A stretch of 64,000 nucleotides of DNA, from assembly GCA_002839095.1 (NCBI GenBank), contig PGXL01000002.1, positions 62,001 through 126,000 of the forward strand, written 5' to 3'. Source of the stretch: Tenericutes bacterium HGW-Tenericutes-2. GTDB lineage: Bacteria > Bacillota_I > Bacilli_A > Acholeplasmatales > Acholeplasmataceae. Made by a program: the position numbers and the translations under genes. Below are positions 3,646 to 62,242 of this stretch, one piece after another. Every line of letters begins with the position of its first letter. Position 1 is the stretch's first letter. The notes beneath the pieces were generated by a model that was not told where the DNA came from, did not search any database, and was given only the letters and a program-made list of their open reading frames with translations.

Positions 3646-4269
3646 ATGGAAAAAGATATAGAAACAATCAAAAAAATAATTAGAGAAGATTATGACAGAA
3701 AAGTCAAAAAATTCAGTGATTTGAATGAATTCAACAAGGTAATTATTATTGGCGATTCGATGGTCGCTTATTTGAATTTAAATAAGTTTGGATTAGCAAA
3801 GGAAGTCATTAACCAAGGTATTGCCGGTGATACAACCATCGGAGTTATAAAAAGACTTGATTTGGCAATTCGATTGAAACCATCCAAGGTTATCTTAAGT
3901 ATTGGATCTAATGATATAGTCTTAACTGATTTAACTCTTCAAGAAACAGTAGAAAATATTATAAAGATCAAGGAAGAAATTGAAGCGAAATCAAATTCAA
4001 AGGTTTATGTTATGAATCTCACACCTGTCTTAAGGGATCATGAGATTACAAACATGGATTATGTATCCAGTAGAACCAATGATGATATTAAGAAAATTAA
4101 CAAGGAACTTAAAAAACAAATTGTTAAAGAGCAATACATCAATATTTATGATGAATTGATTGATAAAGATGGAAGTTTAAACTTAAAATATACAACCGAT
4201 GGTATACACTTGAATCCAGAAGGATATGAAATATATCTGAATTTTATTCATCAAATCATGAAGCAGTAA
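3646..4269 (+). CDS. SGNH/GDSL-family hydrolase
   Basis: A 207-residue protein with the conserved blocks of SGNH hydrolases: block I as GDSM near residue 37 (nucleophile Ser), block III as GSND near 87, and block V as DGIHLN near 185, giving the Asp-x-x-His pair. These enzymes cleave ester bonds in lipids, acylated sugars or similar substrates; the substrate here cannot be read from sequence. There is no signal peptide, so it is probably cytoplasmic. The start is ATG 3646 after AGGGTGAG. It lies alone between two terminators and probably depends on read-through from uvrB or an unseen promoter. Confidence 0.82.
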   Translation: MEKDIETIKKIIREDYDRKVKKFSDLNEFNKVIIIGDSMVAYLNLNKFGLAKEVINQGIAGDTTIGVIKRLDLAIRLKPSKVILSIGSNDIVLTDLTLQETVENIIKIKEEIEAKSNSKVYVMNLTPVLRDHEITNMDYVSSRTNDDIKKINKELKKQIVKEQYINIYDELIDKDGSLNLKYTTDGIHLNPEGYEIYLNFIHQIMKQ

Positions 4270-7143: not shown

Positions 7144-7210
7144 ATTTTGATAACCTTCCTTTTCTAAGTCATATTATAACGCATAAATCACATAAAATAC
7201 AGTAAATGAT

Positions 7211-7315
7211 TGAAAAAATTAAGCACAAAATTAATTTTTTTAATATTTTTGCATAAAAAGTGTTGACAAATCAATTGTAAATGAATATAATTAAGGTGTG
7301 AATTAAAAAAATTAA
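7211..7315. repeat. Repeated TTAATTTTTTTAA motif flanking the DUF2089-operon promoter
   Basis: TTAATTTTTTTAA at 7231-7243 recurs as its exact reverse complement TTAAAAAAATTAA at 7303-7315, on either side of the -35/-10 hexamers. A third partial copy, AAAAAATTAA, lies at 7213-7222 and forms a 10-bp inverted repeat with 7231-7240. Centres of the two full copies are 72 bp apart. This could be an operator pair, but base composition is very AT-rich. Confidence 0.45.
7263..7291 (+). promoter_or_regulatory. Consensus promoter of the SHOCT/DUF2089 operon
   Basis: TTGACA (7263-7268), a 17-bp spacer and TATAAT (7286-7291) match the housekeeping sigma consensus exactly, placing the transcript start near 7298. 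Confidence 0.85.
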
Positions 7316-7331
7316 CAAAGGTGTGATGAAA

Positions 7332-7685
7332 TTGACAAAAAATGAAGTGCTCACTCAATTGAGTAACAAAGAGATATCTAAAAAGGAAGCATACAAGTTA
7401 CTCTATGGTGAAACGAAACAAAGAAAGCCTAGAAGAGCTCATTTTCTAAAAGTGAAGATTAGAGTTCCCGATGAAGGACCAGCTAATTTCTTCCTAGGTC
7501 TCATCCTATTTTTTCCAATCCCTATGTTTTTAGTAAGAATGGTTCTTAGAAGATTTGTAAAGGATGAAGTTACAGAACAGTTTCAAATGTCTAAAGCAGA
7601 ATTAATTCGATTGGTTTCAATTAGAGGAGTAAAAATTAAAGTCAATACACACACAAATGAAAAAATTTATGTGAGAACATTCTAA
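7332..7685 (+). CDS. SHOCT-like hairpin protein with one membrane segment
   Basis: About 117 residues of unknown function. The N-terminus (about residues 4-27) is a helical hairpin of the SHOCT/YvlB type, ending in KEAYKLLYGE. A basic stretch, one hydrophobic segment (about 52-70) and a basic C-terminal part with a beta-strand-like end follow. I prefer TTG 7332 as the start because AAAGGTG lies eight bases upstream; ATG 7326 and GTG 7323 are in frame but too close to that site. First gene of a three-gene operon with a DUF2089 regulator; both downstream proteins carry the same hairpin, which suggests that the three products contact one another. Confidence 0.72.
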   Translation: MTKNEVLTQLSNKEISKKEAYKLLYGETKQRKPRRAHFLKVKIRVPDEGPANFFLGLILFFPIPMFLVRMVLRRFVKDEVTEQFQMSKAELIRLVSIRGVKIKVNTHTNEKIYVRTF

Positions 7686-7701
7686 AAGGAGAAATAAAAC
7701 T

Positions 7702-8118
7702 ATGAAAGAAAAAAACAAAGTAAACCCAGTATTATCCACTTGCCCAGTTTGTAAACATGAACTCAGAGTAGCTAGATTACATTGTGACTATTGCGAAACG
7801 ACCATCGAGGGGTCCTTCACATTATCAAAGTTCAATTATCTAGAAACTGAAAAATTATATTTTATTGAGATCTTTATCAAAAACAGAGGAAACATTAAGC
7901 AAATAGAAAAAGAGTTAAATATTAGTTATCCAACTGTTAAAAAGATGTTAGACGATGTCATTGTCGGTCTAGGATATTCAGTAGAAGATGATGATGCAAT
8001 GTTTACAAAAGAAAAAGAAGAACCAAAAAGTGCTTTGAAGCAAAGCATCCTAGATAAGATCGAAAAGGGAGAAATGACAGTACAAGCTGCATTAGAACTC
8101 CTAAACAAAAAGAAATAG
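7702..8118 (+). CDS. DUF2089-family zinc-ribbon/HTH regulator with C-terminal SHOCT-like hairpin
   Basis: The 138-residue protein opens with a CPVC...CDYC zinc ribbon (Cys 14, 17, 28, 31), then a helix-turn-helix part in which NRGNIKQIEKELNISYPTVKK resembles the recognition unit of the DUF2089 family. It ends with a SHOCT-like hairpin (about 114-137, ILDKIEKGEMTVQAALELL). DUF2089 proteins are annotated as putative transcription factors; target and signal are unknown. The start at ATG 7702 follows AAAGGAG, 16 bases after the preceding stop. Autoregulation of the operon is plausible given repeated motifs at its promoter, but this is inference. Confidence 0.82.
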   Translation: MKEKNKVNPVLSTCPVCKHELRVARLHCDYCETTIEGSFTLSKFNYLETEKLYFIEIFIKNRGNIKQIEKELNISYPTVKKMLDDVIVGLGYSVEDDDAMFTKEKEEPKSALKQSILDKIEKGEMTVQAALELLNKKK

Positions 8119-8142
8119 TATAAAACCACAAAGGAAAGGTGA

Positions 8143-8544
8143 ATGAATATGTCAAAAGAACAATTAAGAGAAGAAAGAATGAAAATATTAGATTTACTCG
8201 CTAAAGGAGTCGTTTCAGCAGAAGAAGCTGAAAAACTACTTGGAGCGATGAACACGCCAGAAGCCAATTTTGGTGAACAAATTGTAGTACCAGGAGTCCC
8301 AAGCAAGAAGTTTCCATTTAGAATGCTAAGAATTTATGTAGACTCTAAAGATGGAGATGTTGTCAAGATCCAAATTCCAATCGAATTTGCTAAGCTTCTC
8401 AAAACTGGCAAGTTCAATGTTAACTTACAGCAATCAGATATCGATATTGATGCTATACTAGATATGATCAATCAAGGATTTGTTGGAGAATTAGTCAATG
8501 TTGAATCTGCTGATGGTGACATCGTTAAAATTGTTGTTGAATAA
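8143..8544 (+). CDS. SHOCT-like domain protein
   Basis: A 133-residue cytoplasmic protein starting with the same hairpin as its neighbours (about residues 12-35, ILDLLAKGVVSAEEAEKLL). After a Pro/Gly linker, residues 58-133 form an alternating beta pattern like the C-terminal domain seen in YvlB/LiaX-type SHOCT-like proteins. Function is unknown; relatives occur with envelope-stress regulators. The ATG at 8143 (or 8149) follows AAGGAAAGG. Last gene of the operon; an inverted repeat follows. Confidence 0.75.
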   Translation: MNMSKEQLREERMKILDLLAKGVVSAEEAEKLLGAMNTPEANFGEQIVVPGVPSKKFPFRMLRIYVDSKDGDVVKIQIPIEFAKLLKTGKFNVNLQQSDIDIDAILDMINQGFVGELVNVESADGDIVKIVVE

Positions 8545-8573: not shown

Positions 8574-8600
8574 CAATAAGACGGGAAATCCGTCTTATTG
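8574..8600 (+). terminator. Hairpin after the DUF2089 operon, without T tract
   Basis: CAATAAGACGG and CCGTCTTATTG pair perfectly (11 bp) around GAAAT, but no run of Ts follows. It may be a weak terminator or a transcript-stabilising structure. Confidence 0.5.
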
Positions 8601-8653: not shown

Positions 8654-10429
8654 ATGCTATTCGGGAAACACTTTAGAAAGTACTATTTAAAATATAGCTT
8701 GTTCTTTTTAGTTGGAGCGGCTGTTTTAATATTTGTTGACTGGGTCCAACTTGATATTCCAATGCTTGTAGGACGTATTATTGATACCTTAAAATCAGGT
8801 AGTGCAAGTAGTGAGTCTATTGAAGCAGCGATCTTAAGAATTGCATCACTAGCAGTCATGATCACTGTTGGTAGATTTTTATGGAGATATACTATCTTTG
8901 GAGCATCTAGAAGAATTGAATATCATTTAAGAAATGAGATGTTTGGCCAAGCGACTAAGCTATCACAAAGCTTTTATAGTCAAGAAAAGGTCGGAGGCTT
9001 AATGACTCACTTCATTAATGACCTAGAAGCTGTTCGTATGTCATTCGGTCCAGGGATTTTAATGCTCGTTGATGGTTTAACATTAGGTGGCTTTGCATTA
9101 TATAGAATGGCTAACTTGAATGCTAGACTTACATTTTATGCAGCAATCCCAATGGTTTTATTAACAATCATTTTAGTATTTATTAGAAAGGTTATTTCTA
9201 AAAAGTTTAAGGAACGCCAACAAGCGTTTGAGAATTTAAGTGACTTTACTCAAGAAAACTTTTCTGGTATTACAGTTATTAAAGCATTCGTTAGGGAATT
9301 AAAGGAAGCAATGTTCTTTAATAAGAAGAATATGGAGCTTTACGATAAAAATTTAAAATTTATTAAATACATTATTATAATTAATATTGCAGTAGGTATC
9401 GCTTTAAATATCGTGATCTTGTCAATCCTATTGTTTGGTAGTTATCTTGTCATCTACGGTGGAGCAAATGGCTTTACTGCGGGACAATTAACAGAATATT
9501 TAAGCTATTTCTTCGCACTTATTTGGCCAACCATGGCAATCTCACAATTTATTCAAATTCAAAGTCAGGCTAAGGGTAGTGCTGATCGAATTGGTAAATT
9601 TTTAGACCGAGAAATTGAAATTAAAGATAGCGAAAATGCGATTGTCAATGATAATTTAAAGGGTTCAATAAAGGTAGATAACTTAACATTCCAATATCCC
9701 GATGGATCTTCACCAGTTTTAAATAATGTCTCATTTGAAATTAACCAGGGTGAAATGGTTGGGGTTTTAGGTCGTACAGGAAGTGGTAAGAGTAGCTTAG
9801 TAGATCTATTACTACGTATCTATAACTTAGATAAAAATCAAGTTTATATCGATGGCATCGATATTATGGATTTATCGATTCATTCCGTTAGAAACGCGAT
9901 AGGATATGTCCCTCAGGATAATTTCTTATTCTCGGATACAATTACAAATAACATTGGCTTTGCCTTAGAAAATCCGACTGAAGATATGGTTGTTGAATCA
10001 GCAAAGCTAGCAGATGTCTATGAAAATGTTTCCGAATTTAAGGAAGGCTTTGAAACGATGCTTGGTGAACGAGGTGTAACGGTATCTGGTGGTCAAAAAC
10101 AAAGAATATCGATTGCACGTGCATTAGCTAAAAATCCAGAAGTACTCATATTAGATGATTCAGTTTCAGCAGTAGATACTAAAACTGAGGAAGCTATCAT
10201 TAAAAATCTTCACCGGATTAGAAAAGGAAAAACAACTATATTTATTGCACATCGAATTTCAACTGTTAAAAAGATGGATAAAATCATTTTACTTGACCAA
10301 GGAAGAGTTGTAGCAATTGGTAATCATCAACAATTGATGAAGACCTCTGAGCTATATCAAGATATGGTTAAGCGTCAAACATTAGAAAATCTAGTTCAAG
10401 GAGGTGGAGTACAGCATGAAGGACTTTAA
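8654..10429 (+). CDS. ABC exporter, degenerate-site half of a heterodimer
   Basis: A 591-residue type IV (multidrug-type) ABC exporter: six membrane helices in the first 320 residues, then a nucleotide-binding domain with Walker A GRTGSGKS near 377, signature VSGGQKQR near 478 and Walker B LILDDS near 501. The residue after Walker B is Asp rather than the catalytic Glu, as in the degenerate subunits of BmrCD/LmrCD-type heterodimers. The partner gene overlaps its end by 14 bases and has the canonical Glu. The pair probably exports drugs, lipids or peptides; the substrate is not readable. The start at ATG 8654 follows AAGGAG. Confidence 0.88.
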   Translation: MLFGKHFRKYYLKYSLFFLVGAAVLIFVDWVQLDIPMLVGRIIDTLKSGSASSESIEAAILRIASLAVMITVGRFLWRYTIFGASRRIEYHLRNEMFGQATKLSQSFYSQEKVGGLMTHFINDLEAVRMSFGPGILMLVDGLTLGGFALYRMANLNARLTFYAAIPMVLLTIILVFIRKVISKKFKERQQAFENLSDFTQENFSGITVIKAFVRELKEAMFFNKKNMELYDKNLKFIKYIIIINIAVGIALNIVILSILLFGSYLVIYGGANGFTAGQLTEYLSYFFALIWPTMAISQFIQIQSQAKGSADRIGKFLDREIEIKDSENAIVNDNLKGSIKVDNLTFQYPDGSSPVLNNVSFEINQGEMVGVLGRTGSGKSSLVDLLLRIYNLDKNQVYIDGIDIMDLSIHSVRNAIGYVPQDNFLFSDTITNNIGFALENPTEDMVVESAKLADVYENVSEFKEGFETMLGERGVTVSGGQKQRISIARALAKNPEVLILDDSVSAVDTKTEEAIIKNLHRIRKGKTTIFIAHRISTVKKMDKIILLDQGRVVAIGNHQQLMKTSELYQDMVKRQTLENLVQGGGVQHEGL

Positions 10430-12212
10430 GGACAACACCCGTGAACGTAGTGACAAAGAGGTATTAAGACGTCTTGTAGGCTATATGAAGCCTTATTGGA
10501 AGGAATTTATAGTCATTTCTTTATTGTTATTAATTTCCTTAGCAATCCAATTGTTACCTCCATTCTTAATTGGTAGAACAGTGGATACAGTCAGTGATCC
10601 AATATTATCTAGGGATGAAAAGATTCAGTACATGATTTTACTGAGCATCTTCTTTATCATCGCACTAGCAATAGGTAATTTTGTTCAATATATTCAAAAC
10701 ATCATGCTACAAAAGGTTGGTCAAAAGACAGTTGTTACATTAAGAAATGAAGTTTTCAATCATATCGAGAATCTTTCAATTGGTCAAATCAATCAAGTCC
10801 CTGTAGGGAAGCTTGTTACTAGAGTAACCAATGATACCAATACGATTAGCGATATGTACACCAATGTAGCAATTAATCTAGTTAAAAATATGCTCTATTT
10901 AGTTGCAGTACTTGTTGTATTATTAATTATTAGCATTAAAATCACTTTATACTTAATGCTTGTTATTCCTGTATTATTATTCGCAACCTATTTATTCAGA
11001 AAGTTTTCTAGAGCATCCTATCGAAGAGTTCGTGCAAATGTCTCTGAGGTCAATGCATTTTTATCAGAAAATCTATCCGGTATGAAGGTCACTCAAATTT
11101 TCAATCAAGAAACAAAGAAAAGAAGAGAATTTAAAGGACATAGCTTAAAGCTAAGAAATAGCTATCTACAAGAAATACTAGTATTTGGTATTTATAGACC
11201 AATCGTCTATGCATTATCGATGGTTGGAGCTGTGATTGCACTTTATTTAGGATATCAAGAAGTTATGGCAGGTATCTTAACAGCAGGTATCCTATTCACC
11301 TATTATACCTATGTAGGTGACTTCTTTGAACCAGTTCAGCAGTTAGCTGAACAGTTTAATACACTTCAAAATGCCTTTGCAAGTGCTGAAAAAGTATTTG
11401 ACGTATTGGATACAAAACCAGATATTGTTGATCAAGAGGATGCAATCGAATTAGAAAGATTTAGTGGAGCAATCGAATTTAGGGATGTATGGTTTTCCTA
11501 TCTTCCAGATGAATGGGTTTTAAGAGGTGTATCCTTTAAGGTCAATCCAGGTGATACAGTAGCCTTTGTAGGTGCAACCGGTTCAGGTAAAACAACAATC
11601 CTAGGATTAATTGTTAGAAACTATGAAATTCAAAAGGGTCAAATTTTAATTGATGGTATTGATATCCATCAAATCAAGCGCTCAAGCTTGAGAAAGCATA
11701 TCGGTCAAATGCTTCAGGATGTATTCCTATTTAGTGGAACTATTGAAGAAAATATCACGCTACGTGATGACTCAATCACGAAGGATGAAGTGATTCATGC
11801 ATCCGAATATGTTGGAGCGAATACATTTATTGATAAGCTTCCTGAAGGATACAATCACGTTGTTTTAGAAAGAGGAAACAATTTTTCTAGTGGACAACGT
11901 CAATTGATTTCATTTGCTAGAGCACTCGTTTATAAGCCTAGCCTAATGATTTTAGATGAAGCAACAGCAAATATTGATAGTGAAACCGAAGAGTTAATTC
12001 AAGAATCATTAGAAAAAATGATGAACATCTCAACGATGTTAATCGTTGCCCATAGACTTTCAACCATTCAGCATGCCGATAAGATTATCGTGATGCAAAA
12101 GGGTGAAATCAAGGAAAGTGGAAGTCATCAAGAGCTACTTAGACAAAAGGGCTTATATTACAATCTTTACCAGCTTCAATATGATGAAAAGGAAGCTACA
12201 ACTGAAATATAA
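10416..12212 (+). CDS. ABC exporter, catalytic half of a heterodimer
   Basis: About 598 residues: six-helix membrane domain (to about 325), then a nucleotide-binding domain with Walker A GATGSGKT, signature FSSGQRQ and Walker B LMILDEAT with the canonical Glu. The signature starts with SSGQ, not SGGQ, as expected for the half whose signature faces the degenerate site. It works with the preceding gene (14-base overlap). I take ATG 10416, after AAGGAGG; a GTG at 10404 lies within that ribosome binding site. A terminator follows, separating it from tldD. Confidence 0.89.
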   Translation: MKDFKDNTRERSDKEVLRRLVGYMKPYWKEFIVISLLLLISLAIQLLPPFLIGRTVDTVSDPILSRDEKIQYMILLSIFFIIALAIGNFVQYIQNIMLQKVGQKTVVTLRNEVFNHIENLSIGQINQVPVGKLVTRVTNDTNTISDMYTNVAINLVKNMLYLVAVLVVLLIISIKITLYLMLVIPVLLFATYLFRKFSRASYRRVRANVSEVNAFLSENLSGMKVTQIFNQETKKRREFKGHSLKLRNSYLQEILVFGIYRPIVYALSMVGAVIALYLGYQEVMAGILTAGILFTYYTYVGDFFEPVQQLAEQFNTLQNAFASAEKVFDVLDTKPDIVDQEDAIELERFSGAIEFRDVWFSYLPDEWVLRGVSFKVNPGDTVAFVGATGSGKTTILGLIVRNYEIQKGQILIDGIDIHQIKRSSLRKHIGQMLQDVFLFSGTIEENITLRDDSITKDEVIHASEYVGANTFIDKLPEGYNHVVLERGNNFSSGQRQLISFARALVYKPSLMILDEATANIDSETEELIQESLEKMMNISTMLIVAHRLSTIQHADKIIVMQKGEIKESGSHQELLRQKGLYYNLYQLQYDEKEATTEI

Positions 12213-61653: not shown

Positions 61654-62242
61654 AAATGAATTGTATAACAGTGGATTTACCTATATAGCAGGTGTAGATG
61701 AAGCTGGAAGAGGACCATTGGCAGGACCTGTAGTTGCTGCTGCAGTAATCCTAAAAAAGGGAGCAATCCTAAAATATACAAATGATTCTAAGCAATTAAC
61801 TGAAAAACAAAGAGATAAAGCATTAATCGAAATCAAAGAAAATGCACTATCTATTGGTATTGGAATATCATCAGTTGAAGAAATTGACTTGATCAATATT
61901 TATAGAGCTAGCAGAGAAGCAATGCTATCTGCAATCAAGCAATTAAAGATCAAACCAGAGTTTTTATTAATTGATGCAATGCCAATGGAAATTGACATTC
62001 CATTAAAGAGTATCATTAAAGGAGATACACTATCGATATCGATTGCTGCAGCATCAATTGTTGCTAAAACAACAAGAGATGCCTATATGCTTGAAATGGA
62101 TAAGGTATTCCCAGAGTATGGATTTAAGAATCATAAGGGCTATGGTACAAAGGAACATTTAGAAGCAATTCAAAAATATGGAATTACTCCGATTCACAGA
62201 AAAACATATGAACCTGTCAAATCAATGCTAAAAAAGAAGTAA
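61625..62242 (+). CDS. rnhB: Ribonuclease HII
   Basis: Removes ribonucleotides from DNA duplexes. The 205-residue protein has GVDEAGRGPLAGPVVAAAV near 23 (catalytic Asp25 and Glu26), LLIDAMP near 117 (third Asp) and the C-terminal NHKGYGTKEH motif. TTG 61625 is chosen since GGAGG lies eight bases upstream; ATG 61640 is further down. It overlaps rbgA by 29 bases, so the pair is translationally linked. dprA, which often follows rnhB and precedes topA, is absent. Confidence 0.95.
   Translation: MTDLVMYQYENELYNSGFTYIAGVDEAGRGPLAGPVVAAAVILKKGAILKYTNDSKQLTEKQRDKALIEIKENALSIGIGISSVEEIDLINIYRASREAMLSAIKQLKIKPEFLLIDAMPMEIDIPLKSIIKGDTLSISIAAASIVAKTTRDAYMLEMDKVFPEYGFKNHKGYGTKEHLEAIQKYGITPIHRKTYEPVKSMLKKK

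Follow-up and report, generated by a model that had tools for sequence, protein, structure and literature searches.

Three adjacent plus-strand genes, separated by short gaps, form the subject of this analysis: P2 (7702–8118), which encodes a DUF2089 protein according to Pfam, and its two flanking genes, P1 (7323–7685) and P3 (8143–8544). They lie in a 64,000-nucleotide stretch of Tenericutes bacterium HGW-Tenericutes-2 (positions 62,001–126,000 of contig PGXL01000002.1), referred to below as the window, which belongs to a 2.3-Mb genome whose closest named relatives are Acholeplasmataceae, including Peloplasma aerotolerans. Many bacteria possess DUF2089, a domain whose function is unknown. The three products carry a common SHOCT-like hairpin, P1 and P3 are homologous to each other, the gene trio recurs in other genomes, and DUF2089 genes are in most cases preceded by a characteristic operator-like array. 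We consider it about evenly balanced that P1, P2, and P3 constitute a self-regulating, probably membrane-linked transcription switch with few targets in export and the cell envelope.

The hairpin was traced with a hidden Markov model (HMM) whose only source sequences were the tails of P2 and the heads of P3 from other genera; P1 and the own genus contributed none. Among the 146 open reading frames (ORFs) of at least 50 residues in the window, P3, P2, and P1 were the sole significant matches (E values of 6e-11, 2e-9, and 2e-7 for the three products; 0.19 for the next ORF). Wide profile-profile alignments with hhalign agree, pairing the N-terminus of P1 with the C-terminus of P2 over 29 columns (probability 92.8, P 4e-7) and the C-terminus of P2 with the N-terminus of P3 over 31 columns (probability 91, P 1e-6), and the original prediction that one hairpin recurs in all three operon products is thus upheld by both approaches. 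The Pfam family PF22746 passes its cut-off of 27 bits on P3 (35.6 bits; hairpin at 8170–8262, plus strand) and stays below it on the P2 tail (19.7 bits), where our own hairpin profile gives an E value of 1.6e-9 and hhalign concurs (8038–8109, plus strand). No Pfam match was obtained on P1, whose hairpin homology (7332–7406, plus strand) is seen by the wider profiles only—that is, by profile-profile alignment and the hairpin HMM—and is also present in the AlphaFold2 model. Across the whole genome, PF22746 matches are confined to P2 and P3. A 61-residue ORF between P2 and P3 at L039:4411–4593, with a like ORF in L043, reads as two tandem SHOCT-like hairpins; the part of the L039 ORF that was scanned scores 35.1 bits with PF22746.

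Ahead of its tail, P2 carries a zinc ribbon (PF22747, 55.5 bits against a cut-off of 27.6; 7741–7833, plus strand) and a helix-turn-helix (HTH) domain (PF09862, 77.7 bits against a cut-off of 33.4; 7840–7977, plus strand), and all three of the DUF2089 features tested were found in the order zinc ribbon, HTH, SHOCT-like tail. A sequence search of the PDB with P2 and P3 returned no significant match.

The relationship between P1 and P3 extends well beyond the hairpin. Aligned from wide alignments with hhalign, the two are homologous over their full length (107 columns, probability 96.6, P 6e-10), which identifies them, at the level of sequence, as full-length paralogues. P1 consists of the N-terminal hairpin and an alpha/beta domain with a hydrophobic insert, and gave no Pfam or NCBIfam match; its true start may be the TTG at 7332, which aligns with the P1 starts of relatives. 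In P3 the hairpin is followed by a beta-beta-alpha-alpha-beta-beta domain (8305–8541, plus strand) that belongs to no Pfam family and was delineated by alignment and AlphaFold2. The AlphaFold2 input was the L021 relative, in which the three genes lie in one frame and could be read through their stops as a 402-residue fusion (pLDDT, the predicted local distance difference test, 82.8). The model predicts the same order of elements in P1 as in P3, and at the place of strand 2 of P3 the hydrophobic segment of P1, NFFLGLILFFPIPMFLVRMVLR (7485–7550, plus strand), is predicted to form a helix-LPIP-helix whose helices reach a pLDDT of 96–97. As modelled, the presumed membrane segment of P1 is an altered part of a fold common to both paralogues. 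A Foldseek comparison of the fusion model with the PDB gave no match with E below 0.1. The median of the best 19-residue hydropathy is 2.09 for P1 versus 1.03 for P3, with P1 values up to 2.6, and in nine loci (L041, L046, L047, L049, L051, L055, L072, L074, and L075) P1 follows a long, hydrophobic N-terminal part in a fusion protein. This part is VanZ in L074, the single locus scanned with Pfam; in the other eight it is taken to be VanZ-like on a reading of the sequences. The hydropathy and the fusions together make a membrane location of P1 likely. The original prediction had assigned the operon one membrane protein, one regulator, and one beta-rich protein, and the zinc ribbon and HTH of P2 agree with this; the division between P1 and P3, in contrast, dissolves into two paralogues that differ by an alteration within a common fold.

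The gene association was assessed in two sets of loci: 74 readable loci chosen for their relationship to P2, and a broader sample of 30 DUF2089 loci, each from a different Bacillota genome. A P1-type gene upstream of the DUF2089 gene and a P3-type gene downstream of it were found in 61 of the 74 and in 20 of the 30, respectively, and the expectation that the putative regulator co-occurs with SHOCT-like partners in related genomes holds in both. Within the Bacillota sample, the P2 tail matches PF22746 at an E value of 0.05 in 25 of 30 loci, and the gene downstream carries PF22746 in 24 and Toastrack in the remaining 6, five of which also have HAAS; a partner can thus do without the SHOCT hairpin. 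Behind P3, often after a gap of 0–22 bp, stands an ATP-binding cassette (ABC) exporter subunit in loci of the Acholeplasmataceae type and a major facilitator superfamily (MFS) permease in many others, as called by Pfam on the two ABC genes of the window and on two MFS genes. Small ORFs of 45–73 residues also occur between P2 and P3 in L010, L011, L015, L032, L033, and L035.

The operon is preceded by a promoter with 12/12 consensus positions, comprising a −35 box TTGACA (7263–7268, plus strand) and, after a 17-bp spacer, a −10 box TATAAT (7286–7291, plus strand). Two unstranded operator-like arrays flank this promoter. The upstream one (7210–7243) has TTAA at 7219, 7231, and 7240, spaced by 12 and then 9 bp, with a degenerate half-site TTGA at 7210 (TCAA on the minus strand); the downstream one (7291–7315) repeats the 12- and 9-bp spacing with TTAA at 7291, 7303, and 7312, begins with the final T of the −10 box, and so overlaps both the −10 box and the start region. 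Relative to the first base of the −10 box, the half-sites stand at −67, −55, −46, +5, +17, and +26. The half-sites, T[T/C]AA, alternate at 9 and 12 bp and make up a 21-bp unit, or two helical turns. TTAA-N5-TTAA is present in 40 of 59 non-redundant regions upstream of P1 (mean of shuffles 4.6, maximum 8) and TTAA-N8-TTAA in 36 (mean of shuffles 4.0, maximum 7), with other TTAA spacings near background; control regions of the same loci also show the 9- and 12-bp spacings (17/89 and 15/89), and the count in the Bacillota sample is for this reason the cleaner test. There, a three-site array lies at most 600 bp upstream of the DUF2089 gene in 22 of 30 loci (200 shuffles: mean 0.16, maximum 2), and 49 arrays were observed against 0.41 expected from the remainder of the same 30 loci; a replicate on Clostridia, resting on six loci, has the array in three. 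Four-site matches are common by chance and only their position was taken as evidence: by comparison of coordinates, 13 of those listed, in 10 genomes, lie shortly upstream of DUF2089. Arrays are also found upstream of Toastrack-type DUF2089 genes (e.g., L122 and L126), and therefore the array tracks the DUF2089 gene and accompanies it whatever its partner. Neither this intergenic array nor the full-length homology of P1 and P3 figured in the original prediction.

Few further targets are suggested by array searches. The own genome, searched by pattern and by family, contains 17 three-site matches, of which only the pair at the P1 promoter lies in intergenic DNA ahead of a gene; those at 4088 and 14598 fall within reading frames and were set aside as fortuitous. 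Four-half-site T[T/C]AA matches number four in this genome, including the P1 promoter and a promoter at C47:206453, while the spacers of the remaining two resemble coding sequence. At C47:206453, which precedes a putative lipoprotein gene, the half-sites occupy the very offsets of the P1 promoter (−67, −55, −46, +5, +17, and +26). A combined pattern of −10 box plus operator gave 22 matches in 20 genomes of the same genus, versus none for the reversed pattern; by position, 10 of these are P1 promoters, and the other 12 are followed by an ORF of about 150 residues with a lipobox-like signal in seven cases, an anchored homologue in two, and a small ORF in three. The lipoprotein label rests on a reading of the signal sequence, and no Pfam family scored above its cut-off on the protein. 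A further intergenic four-site array precedes a 547-residue ABC exporter in G005 and G003, two genomes of the same genus (Pfam on G005). Behind the second promoters L169, L170, and L172 lie ORFs of 69–87 residues; among these and the small ORFs found between P2 and P3, some are perhaps related. In an Izemoplasma-like genome (L152 position 1932, G156:C2), a four-site array precedes a promoter with a pair of tiny, mutually similar ORFs, one of 37 residues.

From these observations a mechanism can be proposed. P2, being the DNA-binding protein encoded beside the arrays, would bind the T[T/C]AA arrays flanking its own strong promoter, and would most likely repress its own operon, because one array overlaps the −10 box and start region of a consensus promoter. 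Indirect evidence for DNA binding by P2 is good. Its targets would be this operon together with the exporter genes that follow, the putative lipoprotein gene, and, in some relatives, the further ABC exporter. The paralogous partners P1 and P3 would dock on the P2 tail through the common hairpin, P1 sitting on the membrane by its hydrophobic helix-PxP-helix and P3 remaining soluble. Envelope or export stress would then change P1 and thereby the amount of P2 available on DNA, so that the state of the membrane would enter as a signal through P1.

Several findings weigh against this switch. The original prediction had treated the SHOCT-like hairpin as a known oligomerisation module, a role that is not established: the one published test found of a SHOCT domain gave no support for oligomerisation (PMC3581485). 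When the hairpins of P2 and P3 were joined and modelled with AlphaFold2, the predicted template modelling score (pTM) was 0.57 and the pLDDT 70, values that speak neither for nor against contact, and the whole-fusion model reached a pTM of 0.53. The Toastrack partners in 6 of the 30 Bacillota loci lack a detected SHOCT hairpin and the P1-type proteins of L128 and L129 lack the hydrophobic segment; the shared hairpin is therefore not obligatory. The exact three-site array is absent from 8 of the 30 loci, and in some relatives a housekeeping-like gene takes the place of the exporter behind P3. The negative oligomerisation test, the score of the joined hairpins, and the capacity of a HAAS-Toastrack protein without a detected hairpin to serve as partner would suit a simpler arrangement, in which P2 is a plain autoregulator acting on the arrays, P1 and P3 are co-expressed envelope-stress effectors of the YvlB/LiaX kind, and each hairpin serves its own protein without joining it to another. 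We regard this as possible, if rather doubtful, given that the genome-wide PF22746 matches are confined to P2 and P3 and that three hairpins in one operon form an association kept across related genera.

Two other alternatives concern the arrays and the location of P1. That a DNA-binding protein other than P2 occupies the arrays, or that they constitute bent or UP-like DNA with P2 not the binder, appears quite improbable: the half-sites are AT-rich and the 21-bp unit would fit phased bending, but the arrays accompany DUF2089 genes of two partner types, the DNA-binding protein that these loci encode is P2, and array-bearing promoters are very few per genome, unlike general UP elements. Moreover, neither of the two genus genomes in which DUF2089 was not matched (G009 and G018) has a match to the promoter pattern, although G009 is incomplete and the pattern is also missing from two genomes that do have DUF2089. 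It is unlikely, though less so, that the hydrophobic segment of P1 is merely a greasy core or dimer surface and that the system is wholly cytosolic, sensing a soluble ligand such as an exporter substrate. In support of such a sensor, AlphaFold2 splits the segment into two 10-residue helices inside the common fold, P1 orthologues without the segment exist, and an exporter behind the operon would suggest a substrate sensor; the 19-residue hydropathy of up to 2.6 and the nine fusions, with VanZ in the one scanned, speak for the membrane.

The membrane-linked switch finds its closest precedent in a survey of PSP (phage shock protein) systems, which divides DUF2089 into a zinc ribbon, an HTH, and a SHOCT-like domain and places it in a context of four genes that includes Toastrack; for that context, too, conversion of a membrane signal into transcription was proposed (mSystems 2024, PMC11237479). 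The three-gene arrangement, for which the original prediction knew no described counterpart, is a variant of this context and not new in kind; what sets it apart is that the partners here are two paralogous SHOCT-plus-alpha/beta proteins. Pfam detected no DUF4097/Toastrack domain in P1 or P3, and neither these two proteins nor the two ABC genes gave a LiaI-LiaF-TM or PspC match. Toastrack (DUF4097) proteins are encoded elsewhere in the own genome, outside the operon, at C49:4760–5428, C28:5290–5976, and C27:46845–47687. An operator array, a regulon, or an exporter linkage was not met in the portion of PMC11237479 consulted, and its main text does not contain the terms 'operator', Acholeplasma, Mollicutes, or Tenericutes; nor was an account of the operator, regulon, or P1–P3 paralogy found in the literature covered, which did not extend to Table S4 of PMC5138195 and its 28 binding sites predicted for Acholeplasma laidlawii. 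YvlB and LiaX (Bacillus, Enterococcus) share with P3 the N-terminal SHOCT-like hairpin, and the NCBIfam LiaX model scores 17.4 bits on P3 residues 10–39, far under its cut-off of 350 bits; P3, however, is without their DUF4097/Toastrack C-terminus. HAAS-PadR systems also combine a membrane-linked helper with a DNA-binding protein, and HAAS-Toastrack replaces P3 in some DUF2089 loci, but P2 is a DUF2089 protein and not PadR, and the window operon has no HAAS. Leaderless bacteriocin clusters have a DUF2089 gene with membrane proteins and an ABC exporter as neighbours (enterocin DD14 ddC, PMC7332713; bawcin bawC, PMC10707071); these DUF2089 proteins have 89–98 residues and a function given as unknown, and the likeness to P2 noted here is one of gene context.

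Taken more widely, DUF2089 proteins across Bacillota might follow one DNA code, an oligomer on tandem 9/12-bp T[T/C]AA half-sites whose loading or unloading is governed from the membrane by hairpin exchange with a membrane-bound and a soluble paralogue; this would be a one-component, kinase-free envelope-stress switch for exporters and surface lipoproteins, a generalization that we advance only tentatively. With a predicted operator tied to the DUF2089 gene whatever its partner, the function of the family becomes accessible to a single gel-shift test. Few regulators are known in wall-less bacteria, which, if the switch is real, would gain a kinase-free coupling of exporters and lipoproteins to the state of the membrane, and the SHOCT-like hairpin would become a candidate for an exchangeable docking tag.

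Downstream of P3, the window encodes an ABC exporter subunit (8654–10429, plus strand; Pfam ABC_membrane and ABC_tran), which adjoins P3 in related genomes too and is a probable downstream member of the P1-P2-P3 transcription unit, and a second exporter subunit that overlaps the first (10404–12212, plus strand; Pfam). A scan of the interval from P3 to the ABC genes revealed no intrinsic terminator. The same interval contains, at 8575–8599, a perfect stem without a T run, AATAAGACGG-GAAAT-CCGTCTTATT, which is perhaps an RNA control element.
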